DNA from: Candidatus Thalassarchaeaceae archaeon
GTDB lineage: Archaea; Thermoplasmatota; Poseidoniia; Poseidoniales; Thalassarchaeaceae
Assembly (NCBI GenBank): GCA_029250605.1
Contig: JAQXEZ010000014.1
Location: forward strand, 1-64,000
Length of the DNA stretch: 64,000 nt
Direction of reading: 5' to 3'
Below the pieces are notes generated by a model that worked only from the letters and a program-made list of their open reading frames with translations, was not told the origin of the DNA and searched no databases. Within the stretch, counting starts at the first letter, position 1. Each line of letters opens with the position of its first letter. Below, piece by piece: positions 1-3,472 of the stretch. Both the position numbers and the translations under genes were made by a program.

Positions 1-54
1 TCCTTGAATAACTGACCCCTCTGAGGACCCTCTGACCTCCATACGCTTAGAGGG

Positions 55-105
55 TAGCGTGTGAGCGGTATCGCAGTCAGACGGTATCTGTGATTCGCAT
101 TGTGG
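55..105. repeat. Left arm of long inverted repeat bracketing the Fas1-HxlR gene
   Basis: This 51-bp segment matches the reverse complement of 2352-2402 with two mismatches. Within it, 62-102 is a 41-bp perfect match to 2355-2395. Weaker similarity continues inward to about 135, including a shared ctccctag block at 115-122. The two arms enclose about 2.25 kb that contain one gene. Both outer ends are followed by ggg, too short to be called a target-site duplication. Confidence 0.93.
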
Positions 106-141
106 TTAGTGGGTTCTCCCTAGAAACCCTTGAGAGCCTTA

Positions 142-179
142 GTAACACCCTTGTTACCCTTGAGTAACGAGTTTGTTAC
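142..179. promoter_or_regulatory. Phased array of four GTAAC/GTTAC half-sites (putative operator)
   Basis: GTAAC occurs at 142-146 and 164-168. Its reverse complement GTTAC occurs at 153-157 and 175-179. The four half-sites start exactly 11 bp apart and alternate in orientation, giving two adjacent GTAAC-N6-GTTAC palindromes on one face of the helix. The array ends about 15 bp upstream of the TATA-like box. HxlR/YodB-family regulators bind short palindromes of this general kind, so autoregulation by the downstream winged-helix protein is an attractive inference. Confidence 0.6.
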
Positions 180-194
180 TACCACAAACGGTAC

Positions 195-202
195 TTTATA
201 TT
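195..202 (+). promoter_or_regulatory. TATA box of the Fas1-HxlR gene
   Basis: TTTATATT is a good archaeal TATA-like box. Its centre lies about 27 bp before the ATG at 226, the usual distance from TATA box to transcription start. That predicts a leaderless or nearly leaderless transcript starting at the ATG, and it decides the choice of start. Confidence 0.55.
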
Positions 203-225
203 CTGTAAGTAGAGCATGGGGGCTT

Positions 226-2304
226 ATGTCCCGAATGAAAACGCTGTTTGTTTGCATGATCTTGGTAGCCCTTCCTGCATCTCAAGTAAGTGCTGATGTT
301 GATGAGTCGAATTCAAACCCGGAGGTAACTATTGGATTTGGCAATGTTACGAATGACACCCTGGTATTCACCATGGATACCTCTGTAGATGTGTATGTAT
401 ACCAAGTAACATTGGCTTGGGAGACTGGTGCTGTTTACTGTGGCATCTCAGGATCCGGTGGACTCTCTGAAGAACATAACTTGTTTGTTAGCGTCCTTTA
501 TGCTGGGTGTTTGACAACAGGATACTATTATGGCGCTCAGGGAAATTACTGGATCCCCTCAGGTAGTAATGATACTCTCACATCTATTTTCTATCAATCC
601 AACAGCCCTGAGGTATGCATCGGGAATGCGACCTATACAGTCATGTTACCCGATGGGGAGTTCGAAACTCGACAAGCAGACTTTGATCCCAATGATTGTC
701 TGAGTTATACTATGTATGAAAGAGAATGGCCATATGATGTATGGTATGAGCTTGATGAAAACGACAATGAATCACTCCCCACCAGTCCACTTAGATTTGA
801 CCCTGGAAATGATGTTCCGACTGTTTTGCAGGATGATGGTTCGTTCGACATTTTGATTTCCGCATTGAACATTACAGGTCTTTTGGACTTTACAAGAGAA
901 GGAAATAGCCCCAACATGGGATTCACGATGATTGCACCTACAGACGAGGCATTCCAAGACATTGGTTTTGACTTAGATGATGTGGACACGCAAGAGGAGA
1001 TAGACATCCTCACCGAGATTCTTCTACATCATACAACTATCCACCCCGAGGGGTACACTAGTGCTGTAGTTTGGTTCGGTGATGAAAATTGCACCGAAGT
1101 AGACTACGAGCTTAATGTCGGGAACGGAGAGTACGCTGAACCTGGAAACTATTCCTCATGGACCGAGACACACACTGTCTCTGATGACTGCCAGGGCAAC
1201 AGGACCATTGGTGGAGCGAACGTGACCTACTTCCAAGGAGTGTCGAATGGAGTGATAGCAGTAATTGACTCAGTTTTGATTCCCGATAGCCTAGCCTCGC
1301 CACCTCAGGCTAATGAGCCAAGGTTCAATCCTAGATCTGATATTCCAACCAATCTAGAGGATGATGGAGAATTTGGAGACTTAATGGATGCATTGGGAAT
1401 GACTATGTTGATGGACGACATTACTATCGAGAATAACTCTCAGATGGGAATGACAATTTTTGCACCAACAGATGAGGCATTTGCTGCGGCTGGAATAAAT
1501 CTTGACGACTACGAGAGTCTCCAGGAGCTAGAGGGCTTGTCTGAAATCCTCCTAAATCATATTTCATTTGACTGGGTTTTATCATTCCCTGATGAATGTA
1601 CGCCCACAGAGTTAGACATGGAAACTACAGATTCATTTTCGATAGCCATTTCAAATGATTGTGAAGGTAATATATTCGTCAATGAAGCAAAGGTTCTCTA
1701 TTCCCAAGGAGTGGAAAATGGAGTTATTATCGTCATCGATCAAATACTGATGCCAATAGAAGAAGAACCTGTGGAGGAGCCTGTGGAGGAGCCTGTCAAA
1801 GAACCAGAGATAGAATTTGAAAATACTGGAGGACCCGGTGCCGATGCCGAAGCATCGAGCGAATCTAGTTTGGTGCCCAGAACTACGATGGTTCTTGGAG
1901 GATTAGCAATTATCAGTATGTTAGTTATTCTAATTGGAACGGCAGCAGGGACCTCCAAACGGAATCGTATGGAATCCATAACGGAAGAAGATACCCCTGA
2001 TGTAGATGATTTACTAGTGTTACTTTCACGATCAAAAATGGTTCAAATTATTCGCGTACTACATTCAGCGGAAAATCCGATAAGATTTACAGAACTAAAG
2101 GAAAGAGTTGACACATCTTCGACAACCCTTACCAGAAGACTAGGTGAATTAGAGGATTACCAATTGGTTGAGAGAACTGAACTTCAGACAGTCCCAGTCA
2201 CTGTAGCGTACAAGCTGACAGACTCAGGATCAGCATTATTGCCTAGTCTAGAGTCGTTTTTCGAGTGGGCAATTGAAGAAAGCCCCGAGGGTGTTCCAAA
2301 CTAA
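226..2304 (+). CDS. Membrane-anchored Fas1-domain protein with cytosolic HxlR-type winged helix
   Basis: This 692-residue protein is a probable one-component transmembrane transcription regulator. An N-terminal signal peptide (residues 1-25, ending ASQVSADV) is followed by a Cys-containing domain of unknown family (about 30-185, four cysteines). Two fasciclin/Fas1 domains follow (about 190-353 and 366-510), each with the block APTDEAF. Next come a Glu/Pro/Val repeat linker (512-531), one membrane helix (about 554-575) and a C-terminal winged helix (about 594-685). The winged helix resembles HxlR: it has FTELK, a recognition-helix region TTLTRRLGELE, and a wing followed by YKLTDSG. Fas1 domains usually mediate adhesion or ligand binding, while HxlR proteins are normally small and soluble. 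The start at 226 fits the TATA box; an ATG at 235 is also possible. Two rows counted by hand gave 42-43% GC, against about 70% in the carboxylase genes to the right. The regulatory role is inferred. Confidence 0.8.
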   Translation: MSRMKTLFVCMILVALPASQVSADVDESNSNPEVTIGFGNVTNDTLVFTMDTSVDVYVYQVTLAWETGAVYCGISGSGGLSEEHNLFVSVLYAGCLTTGYYYGAQGNYWIPSGSNDTLTSIFYQSNSPEVCIGNATYTVMLPDGEFETRQADFDPNDCLSYTMYEREWPYDVWYELDENDNESLPTSPLRFDPGNDVPTVLQDDGSFDILISALNITGLLDFTREGNSPNMGFTMIAPTDEAFQDIGFDLDDVDTQEEIDILTEILLHHTTIHPEGYTSAVVWFGDENCTEVDYELNVGNGEYAEPGNYSSWTETHTVSDDCQGNRTIGGANVTYFQGVSNGVIAVIDSVLIPDSLASPPQANEPRFNPRSDIPTNLEDDGEFGDLMDALGMTMLMDDITIENNSQMGMTIFAPTDEAFAAAGINLDDYESLQELEGLSEILLNHISFDWVLSFPDECTPTELDMETTDSFSIAISNDCEGNIFVNEAKVLYSQGVENGVIIVIDQILMPIEEEPVEEPVEEPVKEPEIEFENTGGPGADAEASSESSLVPRTTMVLGGLAIISMLVILIGTAAGTSKRNRMESITEEDTPDVDDLLVLLSRSKMVQIIRVLHSAENPIRFTELKERVDTSSTTLTRRLGELEDYQLVERTELQTVPVTVAYKLTDSGSALLPSLESFFEWAIEESPEGVPN
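1765..1806 (+). repeat. 12-bp tandem repeat in the periplasmic linker
   Basis: Three 12-bp units start at 1765, 1777 and 1789, followed by half a unit. They encode repeated Glu-Glu-Pro-Val between the second Fas1 domain and the membrane helix. Such acidic Pro-rich stalks are extended spacers and can change length by slippage in steps of four residues without a frameshift. Confidence 0.85.
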
Positions 2305-2351
2305 CACGTTCAATGGGACCCCTCAATGGTCTGCTAGGGAGGACCGTCAGA

Positions 2352-2402
2352 CCCCAATGCGAATCACAGATACCGTCTGACTGCGATACCGCTCATACGC
2401 TA
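2352..2402. repeat. Right arm of long inverted repeat bracketing the Fas1-HxlR gene
   Basis: This is the partner of 55-105 in inverted orientation. The perfect core is 2355-2395, and weaker inward similarity reaches about 2318. It lies about 50 bp after the stop codon of the Fas1-HxlR gene and about 90 bp before the DUF1737-like gene. The right arm falls outside any convincing coding sequence. Confidence 0.93.
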
Positions 2403-2493
2403 GGGAATCACTACCGAGCAGTCACTCAGTGGGAATGCAACAGAACCTCGCTCATGCGATGCCTCCTTCAACTGACAGCGAGTGCGCGGCTTG

Positions 2494-2685
2494 ATGGAAT
2501 ACAAGATGGTGACTGCGGGAACCCGCGAAAACGGGGGCCAAGGAGTGAAAGAGGACAGCGTGGAGCTGGTGGCAGTGTTGGACGCTAAGGTCAAAGACGC
2601 CATCAGACTTGGATGGCGACCGGTCGGCGTCGTCGTCACAGGTCCAGATGGTAGATTGAACCAGACGATGGTCAGAGTGCGCTGA
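2494..2685 (+). CDS. DUF1737-like small protein
   Basis: This protein has 63 residues and begins MEYKMVTAG. The pattern is a short strand (EYKMVTA), an amphipathic helix (VELVAVLDAKVKDAIRLGW), then RPVGVVVTGPDG and a final strand ending NQTMVRVR. It resembles DUF1737, a small family of unknown function whose members typically read 'YKVVTA...L...V...I..GW.P.GG......QAMV'. It lies between the right inverted-repeat arm and an AT-rich convergent gap. Its base composition matches the GC-rich genes to its right rather than the Fas1 gene. An upstream start at 2482 is possible, but ATG 2494 fits the family N-terminus. Confidence 0.6.
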   Translation: MEYKMVTAGTRENGGQGVKEDSVELVAVLDAKVKDAIRLGWRPVGVVVTGPDGRLNQTMVRVR

Positions 2686-2968
2686 GGTCAAGCCGGCTCA
2701 CTCCCAGCGCCTCGAGGGAGGCAATAGACCCAGTGACGAATATATGGGCCTCCATTCAATCAACCGTGGTCACTAGGGTTACCCATACTCCCAATAAACT
2801 ACCCCTATTAGACAGGGTTCGGACTCACACGCTAGTCTCTTTTCCTATGATGCCTTATTACTACACCAACAATTGAAGAAAAAATGATAATTATGAATAT
2901 CAATGGCGGGTCATTGATTGGGATATTTTTGGTAGCAAGTCCATTCTTGTTCTGAAATGTTCCCTACC
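2686..2968. other. AT-rich convergent intergenic region
   Basis: This gap lies between the DUF1737-like gene (plus) and the biotin carrier gene (minus). It turns AT-rich after about 2780, with short A and T runs at 2876-2886 and 2923-2932 that could end transcription from both sides. A 23-codon hydrophobic reading frame at 2884-2955 was considered and not accepted. No RNA gene or other repeat was seen. Confidence 0.5.
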
Positions 2969-3472
2969 TCATTCAATGGGCTTGATCTCCACCAGCGAGG
3001 ACCCCATGTCCACCCTGTCCCCTTCGGAGAAGTGGACCTTGGTTATCTCCCCGGGCTTGGGAGCGAGTATCTTGTGCTCCATCTTCATCGCCTCCAGGGT
3101 CATCAGGTGCTGCCCCTCTCGTACCCTCTGGCCCTCCTTGGCCATGACCTGGAGTACGGTCCCCGGCATCGGGGCCTTGAGGCTGCCCTCGTTGGAGGAT
3201 GCCTTGCTGCCCTGCTCGTGGAAGAGGACCTCGTGGGCCCTGCCGTCCATGTGGACCCACCACGTGTCCCCGGTCCTGGTCACGTGGGCCAGCTTGGACT
3301 CCCCCCCGACCCTGACTGTCACCCTGCCCGGCTTGCCCTCCGCCTCTACCGATGTCTCGGGGATGTGGGCCTCGGTGCCGTCCCTCGTTAGCGAGGTGAT
3401 GGAGACCGAGCCCTCGCTCTCCTGCAACGAGGCCTTGTACCTCTCCTGGCGGTCGGGAACGCTCCACTCCAT
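2969..3472 (-). CDS. Biotin carboxyl carrier subunit of methylcrotonyl-CoA (acyl-CoA) carboxylase
   Basis: This 167-residue protein carries the biotin that shuttles carboxyl groups between the biotin carboxylase and the carboxyltransferase. The C-terminal half is a biotinyl domain with the motif EAMKMEH, making Lys130 the predicted biotinylated residue, preceded by APMPGTV. The N-terminal half (about 15-90) has beta-rich sequence with WWVHMDGRAHEV, like the domain that joins the biotin carboxylase and carrier parts in fused MccA/PccA proteins. The gene starts 9 bp after the biotin carboxylase gene ends, so the usual single alpha subunit is encoded here as two proteins. Confidence 0.9.
   Translation of the reverse strand: MEWSVPDRQERYKASLQESEGSVSITSLTRDGTEAHIPETSVEAEGKPGRVTVRVGGESKLAHVTRTGDTWWVHMDGRAHEVLFHEQGSKASSNEGSLKAPMPGTVLQVMAKEGQRVREGQHLMTLEAMKMEHKILAPKPGEITKVHFSEGDRVDMGSSLVEIKPIE

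Follow-up and report, generated by a model that had tools for sequence, protein, structure and literature searches.

A probable site-specific gene-module array, possibly a new recombination system, in Marine Group II archaea

Why a single gene should be bracketed exactly by a long inverted repeat is the question raised by the beginning of the DNA analysed here, i.e. positions 1 to 64,000 of contig JAQXEZ010000014.1 of a Candidatus Thalassarchaeaceae archaeon (the window). A first-pass annotation of the sequence had proposed a non-autonomous mobile unit, a recombinase-driven invertible cassette, or paired regulatory sites. The repeat itself was described correctly: positions 62-102 and 2355-2395 are reverse complements without a single mismatch (41/41), and the wider arms (55-105 and 2352-2402) contain two mismatches over 51 bp. 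Ungapped extension carries the arms to 55-123 and 2334-2402 (69 nt, 90%), and no other inverted repeat in the window is as long or as good; the inverted repeat is real and a chance origin is negligible. The window starts at base 1 of its contig (C19, one of the 20 contigs of this 1.48 Mb genome), which places the left arm 54 bp from the contig end.

Between the arms lies, as had been claimed, a single gene on the forward strand (226-2304, with a start at either 226 or 235), which is indeed comparatively AT-rich (G+C 43.8% vs 54.7% for the window). Its product contains two fasciclin domains (PF02469) and a C-terminal HxlR/MarR-type winged helix (PF01638) according to Pfam, as well as a signal peptide region and a transmembrane segment, both read by eye; the protein (226-2304) would have an unusual one-component design, with exported fasciclin domains, one membrane span and a cytoplasmic HxlR-type DNA-binding domain. 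The distribution of this passenger gene is patchy: it was found in one of 27 genus-mates and sporadically elsewhere in the family, with some cross-genus matches of higher identity along part of its length. Homology of the fasciclin module to the copies in two other genomes (G037 and G111) ends 1 bp from both arms, and the module also has homologues without the repeat.

The arms turn out to belong to a superfamily of intergenic repeats dispersed in Marine Group II archaea, of which they are two copies facing inward; it comprises the families F1, F2 and F3, which are homologous in profile searches (F2 and F3 occur on the same contigs as F1). The left arm (57-137, forward strand) is an F1 repeat consisting of the half-site GCGTGTGAGCGG and about 65-70 bp of repeat body, and the right arm is an F1 repeat in reverse (2287-2400, reverse strand; BLASTN 2322-2402, profile 2287-2402). 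Copies of the superfamily are mostly 80-95% alike and come in a full form of about 145 bp and a short form of about 60-75 bp, the outer end being constant and the inner end variable. A search for the arms at other loci of related genomes, which the first-pass annotation had suggested, was fruitful: matches occur in 18 of the 148 family genomes, own genome included (E ≤ 1e-6). The latter gave seven BLAST matches to the arm, which is also present on contigs C3, C8 and C9, and its repeat copies (in the 1.396 of 1.481 Mb, 94%, that was covered) are limited to C3, C8, C9, C11 and the ends of C19 and C4, i.e. to small, low-GC contigs plus a few contig ends. Independent assemblies also have near-identical arm cores, one of them on a contig with the title isolate AG-422-I22, which looks, going by its name alone, like a single-amplified genome; arm matches in other records mostly have titles naming Marine Group II/Candidatus Poseidoniales or Euryarchaeota, in agreement with the assignment to Marine Group II in the first-pass annotation. 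The core was also seen on a contig binned as Planctomycetaceae (L122, PBOU01000193.1), which is probably mis-binned. A viral origin was considered and rejected: the motif is on one IMG/VR contig (L120), a phage-like contig with a Marine Group II-type gene and the motif at its very end, which looks chimeric and is probably a chimeric assembly.

The repeat copies are intergenic, adjoin unrelated genes and take any orientation relative to genes: the gene end opposite the 3' side of the repeat is a 3' end 34 times and a 5' end 25 times, and the one opposite its 5' side is a 5' end 29 times and a 3' end 25 times. With copies in all orientations beside unrelated genes, the reading as paired regulatory sites finds no support. 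The first-pass annotation had named as a refutation the case that the arms belong to a common motif without relation to the gene. Literally this is so, yet the dispersed motif marks the ends of gene modules (see below), which strengthens the mobile-unit reading instead. SelO is the only gene family seen in recurrent association with the repeat; in three genera, an F1 repeat lies 19-27 bp past the SelO stop codon (L010:300-1853, L056:2129-3655 and L057:1-1140). An Rfam scan of four island contigs gave no RNA family match, and the repeat has weak folding scores, with a covariation term near zero or positive and few compensatory pairs. Alternatively, the copies might be simple MITE- or REP-like elements that inserted between genes and flank this one by accident, since they are dispersed, intergenic, partly palindromic and start with GTAG, as bacterial REPs do. 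However, the Y1 transposase expected for REP/BIME elements (RAYT) was found in none of the 28 genus genomes, no contiguous empty site (where a solo repeat would have inserted) was among the matches listed, for loci that had been chosen for carrying repeats, and the TA at which the repeats end is also where entire gene modules stop. Accidental insertion seems very improbable.

This TA is the centre of a larger site, which consists of a half-site of about 12 bp, the TA and an inverted 12-bp half-site, one half being the outer end of the arm. Among 82 collected sites, all of which were chosen to have TA, only the TA is invariant; there are 23 different NNTANN centres, and the bases beside the TA follow their own half-site. 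At 53 repeat starts the T is present in 52 and the A in 50. The half opposite the repeat across the TA resembles the reverse complement of the first 12 bases of the repeat, or belongs to a third type (TCAGAGGG), and 49 such opposite halves, scored with the half-site model of the repeat, gave a z of 9.4 against intergenic background and of 12.1 against within-arm shuffles. Near-perfect palindromic sites exist on C11 (GCATCATCTTCCC TA GGGAATGTGATGC) and in genome G145 (GGCATCATATTCCC TA GGGAAGATTATGCC), while the palindromic form GCATCATNTTCCCTAGGGAANATGATGC is confined to the genus of the window (9 of 28 genomes vs 0 of 120 others). With the full model (half-site, TA, half-site), 151 kb of island sequence yielded 57 sites. 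The model was trained on this same set of loci and tested on sites unused in training, and of the 26 latter sites 25 are intergenic, even though only about 15% of bases are (coding status being taken from a simple codon-bias gene caller written for the analysis); a reversed-sequence control gave no sites. Of the 18 top-scoring sites in the genome of the window, every one is intergenic, and each lies either on an island contig or at window position 55.

In the window, positions 1-54 (forward strand) are the end of a neighbouring module, of which the last ~12 bp (about 43-54, ending CTTAGAGGG) form the outer, P-type half-site of the left site. The TA core of this site is at 55-56, between half-sites at about 43-54 and 57-68 with model scores of 5.7 and 19.8. 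The right site has its TA at 2401-2402, with a left half-site of F1 type scoring 17.8; its right half-site, GGGAATCACTACC, starting at 2403, is weak (-3.1), which counts against the explanation preferred below. Next follows a small module between two sites (2403-2832, forward strand) with a possible 64-aa ORF (2494-2685), up to a further TA at 2833-2834 (CTCACACGC TA GTCTCTTTTCC, score 13.7, outside the training set). Positions 2824-2906 (reverse strand) hold what is left of the 3' end of an accessory gene, of which genome G126 has an intact copy (88% to L041:12429-12511). The probable outermost site (TTCCC TA CCTC, TA at 2965-2966), recognised by eye and under the scoring threshold, lies 2 bp past the stop codon of the backbone gene, which is of the biotin carboxyl carrier type (2969-3472, reverse strand) and constitutes one border of the island, the other being the seryl-tRNA synthetase gene. 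These two border genes are adjacent or nearly so in four relatives (G132, G133, G135 and G140), and other relatives have different insertions at the same junction, including restriction-modification genes in G144 and G146. The junction is an insertion hotspot, where genomes other than that of the window have a DNA methylase and other defence-like genes (L116:964-8899 and L111:8842-11441).

Such alternation of sites and genes is seen on a larger scale elsewhere. Of 40 intervals between sites at nine loci (median length 992 bp), 28 hold exactly one gene, a pattern that was recognised after looking at the data; C8 has six sites in alternation with genes, and a dozen sites lie within about 13 kb on contig 1 of G145. 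The module contents are accessory and varied, including SelO, a DEAD helicase, a mechanosensitive channel, an aquaporin, MAPEG and rhodanese proteins, methyltransferases and restriction-modification genes; no transposase family is among the contents listed, and no intact recombinase was found in the modules. Each module keeps its own end sequences, i.e. half-sites that are often continued by an F1, F2 or F3 repeat of 60-145 bp, and neighbouring modules meet head to head at the TA dinucleotide.

Judging from aligned sequences, modules have evidently been exchanged between genomes and between contigs, with breakpoints at the TA. Ten of 90 homology breakpoints lie within 2 bp of a site, where random intergenic positions gave a mean of 1.23 and none of 2000 trials reached 10. 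The left flank of the window module (1-56) is 98% identical to a stretch of C11 (L160:9389-9445), where the same TA is followed by a different module: the shared AGAGGGTA continues with GCGTGTG in the window and with CCCTTGTG on C11, the split being at the TA. The same arrangement of a common left flank, a different right module and a break at the TA is found between C8 and C9, and between L105 and L041 of G126. Furthermore, a 0.6-kb module common to G145 and G138 is cut at the TA on both ends and has different neighbours in the two genomes, and the same gene lies beside the backbone gene in opposite orientation in G138 vs G139. Most genomes compared are fragmented metagenome assemblies, and the alternative junctions within one genome are contig ends of such assemblies, for which duplicates or mixed strains could be the source.

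It could be argued that homologous recombination between the dispersed 60-145 bp repeats shuffles the genes with no dedicated recombinase, the repeats being long enough and mostly 80-95% alike. The breakpoints, however, coincide with the edge of the repeat that carries the TA, and what is joined there in the alternative arrangement is often just a ~12-bp half-site with no repeat, so that homologous recombination seems very improbable. Somewhat more can be said for non-autonomous TA-target transposons (IS630/Tc1-mariner-like, including their MITEs), with half-sites as terminal inverted repeats, the TA as target duplication and arrays arising from insertion beside older copies: a TA is present at every boundary, and both the window unit and a 305-bp pair in L041 have inverted ends. 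Nonetheless, this too is improbable, as the matching DDE_3 transposase was found in none of the 28 genus genomes, a module often has half-sites of different types at its two ends, and the sequence across the TA is usually half-site-like, unlike random targets.

The likely reading is therefore an array whose modules mostly hold a single gene and are shuffled by site-specific recombination at sites centred on TA, with positions 57-2400 as one such mobile module. The first-pass suggestions of a non-autonomous mobile unit and of a recombinase-driven cassette are hereby both well supported in kind, with a gene of patchy occurrence in a unit that ends exactly at TA-centred inverted half-sites and whose left flank joins a different module on C11. 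Inversion of the window module itself is no more than a possibility. While the exchange points can be read off directly, the enzyme and chemistry are what we infer: a recombinase would bind the two inverted ~12-bp half-sites and perform conservative strand exchange at the 2-bp TA core, the outcome of which could be insertion, excision, replacement or inversion of a module. It would have to act in trans, because the modules are without an intact recombinase. Since TA is its own reverse complement, the site would be directionless, which would explain modules in both orientations. The repeat body past the half-site may be an accessory protein-binding region, or may have been spread by module duplication.

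Which enzyme this might be can be narrowed down from what the genomes encode. The half-site-flanked 2-bp core is reminiscent of the IS110/IS1111 bridge-RNA recombinases, in which a 2-bp core has a half-site on each side, but a DEDD IS110 transposase is present in none of the 148 family genomes. As for serine-recombinase systems, a resolvase-type recombinase is present in one of 28 genomes, which is not that of the window. A phage-integrase-type recombinase, by contrast, is encoded in 135 of the 148 family genomes, usually in one copy; that of the window genome is XerA-like, its closest solved relative being annotated as XerA. The island itself contains a fragment of the C-terminal domain of the host XerA (C11, L160:6649-7017, reverse strand; residues 251-369, 85% identical), the TAG stop codon of which overlaps a TA junction. 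Considering the absence of Y1, DDE_3 and IS110 transposases, the near-absence of resolvases, the near-universal XerA-like enzyme and this fragment, the host XerA tyrosine recombinase is tentatively put forward as the leading candidate, the alternative being an unrecognised recombinase. A tRNA-type integrase beside the G145 array was not taken as the common enzyme, because it is missing from most arrays and has a weak phage integrase score.

Taking XerA one step further, the array might be a true XerA/dif-module system, a more specific form of the explanation preferred here, with XerA acting at sites of the Acinetobacter type, whose spacer is 6 bp long. It would fit that nearly all genomes have one XerA-like recombinase, that the modules lack a recombinase, and that the 85%-identical host fragment ends at a TA junction. 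This is nevertheless rather unlikely: with 23 NNTANN spacers in 82 sites, the TA alone is constant and the adjacent bases go with their own half-site, and a backbone scan for a site-like motif that could serve as the matching chromosomal dif gave nothing above control level. In Acinetobacter, plasmid dif modules (pdif, XerC/XerD) recombine at identical or near-identical 6-bp spacers; they are small, lack a recombinase of their own and are subject to shuffling and inversion, with short inverted-arm sites and junctions built from the arms of two neighbours (PMC13141974). The array resembles them in that its modules are bounded by short two-inverted-arm sites and each junction takes an arm from both neighbours. 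It differs in being on an archaeal chromosome, in the long repeat bodies attached, in having a candidate enzyme only by inference, in sharing a 2-bp TA rather than a 6-bp spacer, and in half-sites that are different from the XerC/XerD arms printed in PMC13141974.

Integron cassette arrays (attC/IntI, including archaeal ones) are similar as well in their mostly single accessory genes and partly palindromic intergenic elements. In contrast to integrons, however, the orientation of element to gene is not fixed in the array, exchange is at the TA instead of in the attC core, and no IntI was found next to the arrays, the only such enzymes encountered being XerA, the XerA fragment and tRNA-type integrases; the paper on archaeal integrons has no word beginning with Thermoplasmat or Poseidon in its main text (PMC9668308). 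Given the variable spacer, the free orientation and the missing IntI, the array is filed neither with dif modules nor with integrons. Archaeal XerA/dif chromosome resolution has in common with the array the inverted arms of ~11-12 bp around a short centre and the presence of XerA, but uses one site per chromosome, as opposed to many sites in one island, and we take the half-site sequence to be unlike the published Thermococcales dif.

No earlier description of such an array was found in the open-access literature, and it is possible that a new recombination system is involved. The chances are slightly below even that this is an undescribed archaeal gene-cassette system with directionless 2-bp TA sites, at which any module joins any other either way round, served in trans either by a new recombinase family or by a XerA that departs from its usual requirement for a 6-bp spacer, and forming a main gene-exchange route in some of the ocean's most abundant archaea. 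Marine Group II is among the most abundant uncultured plankton, and its route of accessory-gene gain is poorly known. The recognisable sites make the module array directly testable, since junctions can be read and module contents catalogued. An enzyme that recombines at a 2-bp palindromic core between ~12-bp half-sites would also deserve attention in its own right, and the array may also explain the break-up of island contigs in assemblies.

Lastly, four tyrosine recombinases of about 380-530 aa were noticed at other loci (L052:3715-5205, L204:9026-10375, L211:9578-10915 and L209:1563-2708), with C-termini that look like translated ends of tRNA genes (e.g. GDLNPRPPGCKPGALPS). This suggests that they belong to tRNA-targeting integrative elements, and proelements beside tRNA genes have been described for Poseidoniales (PMC12324425).
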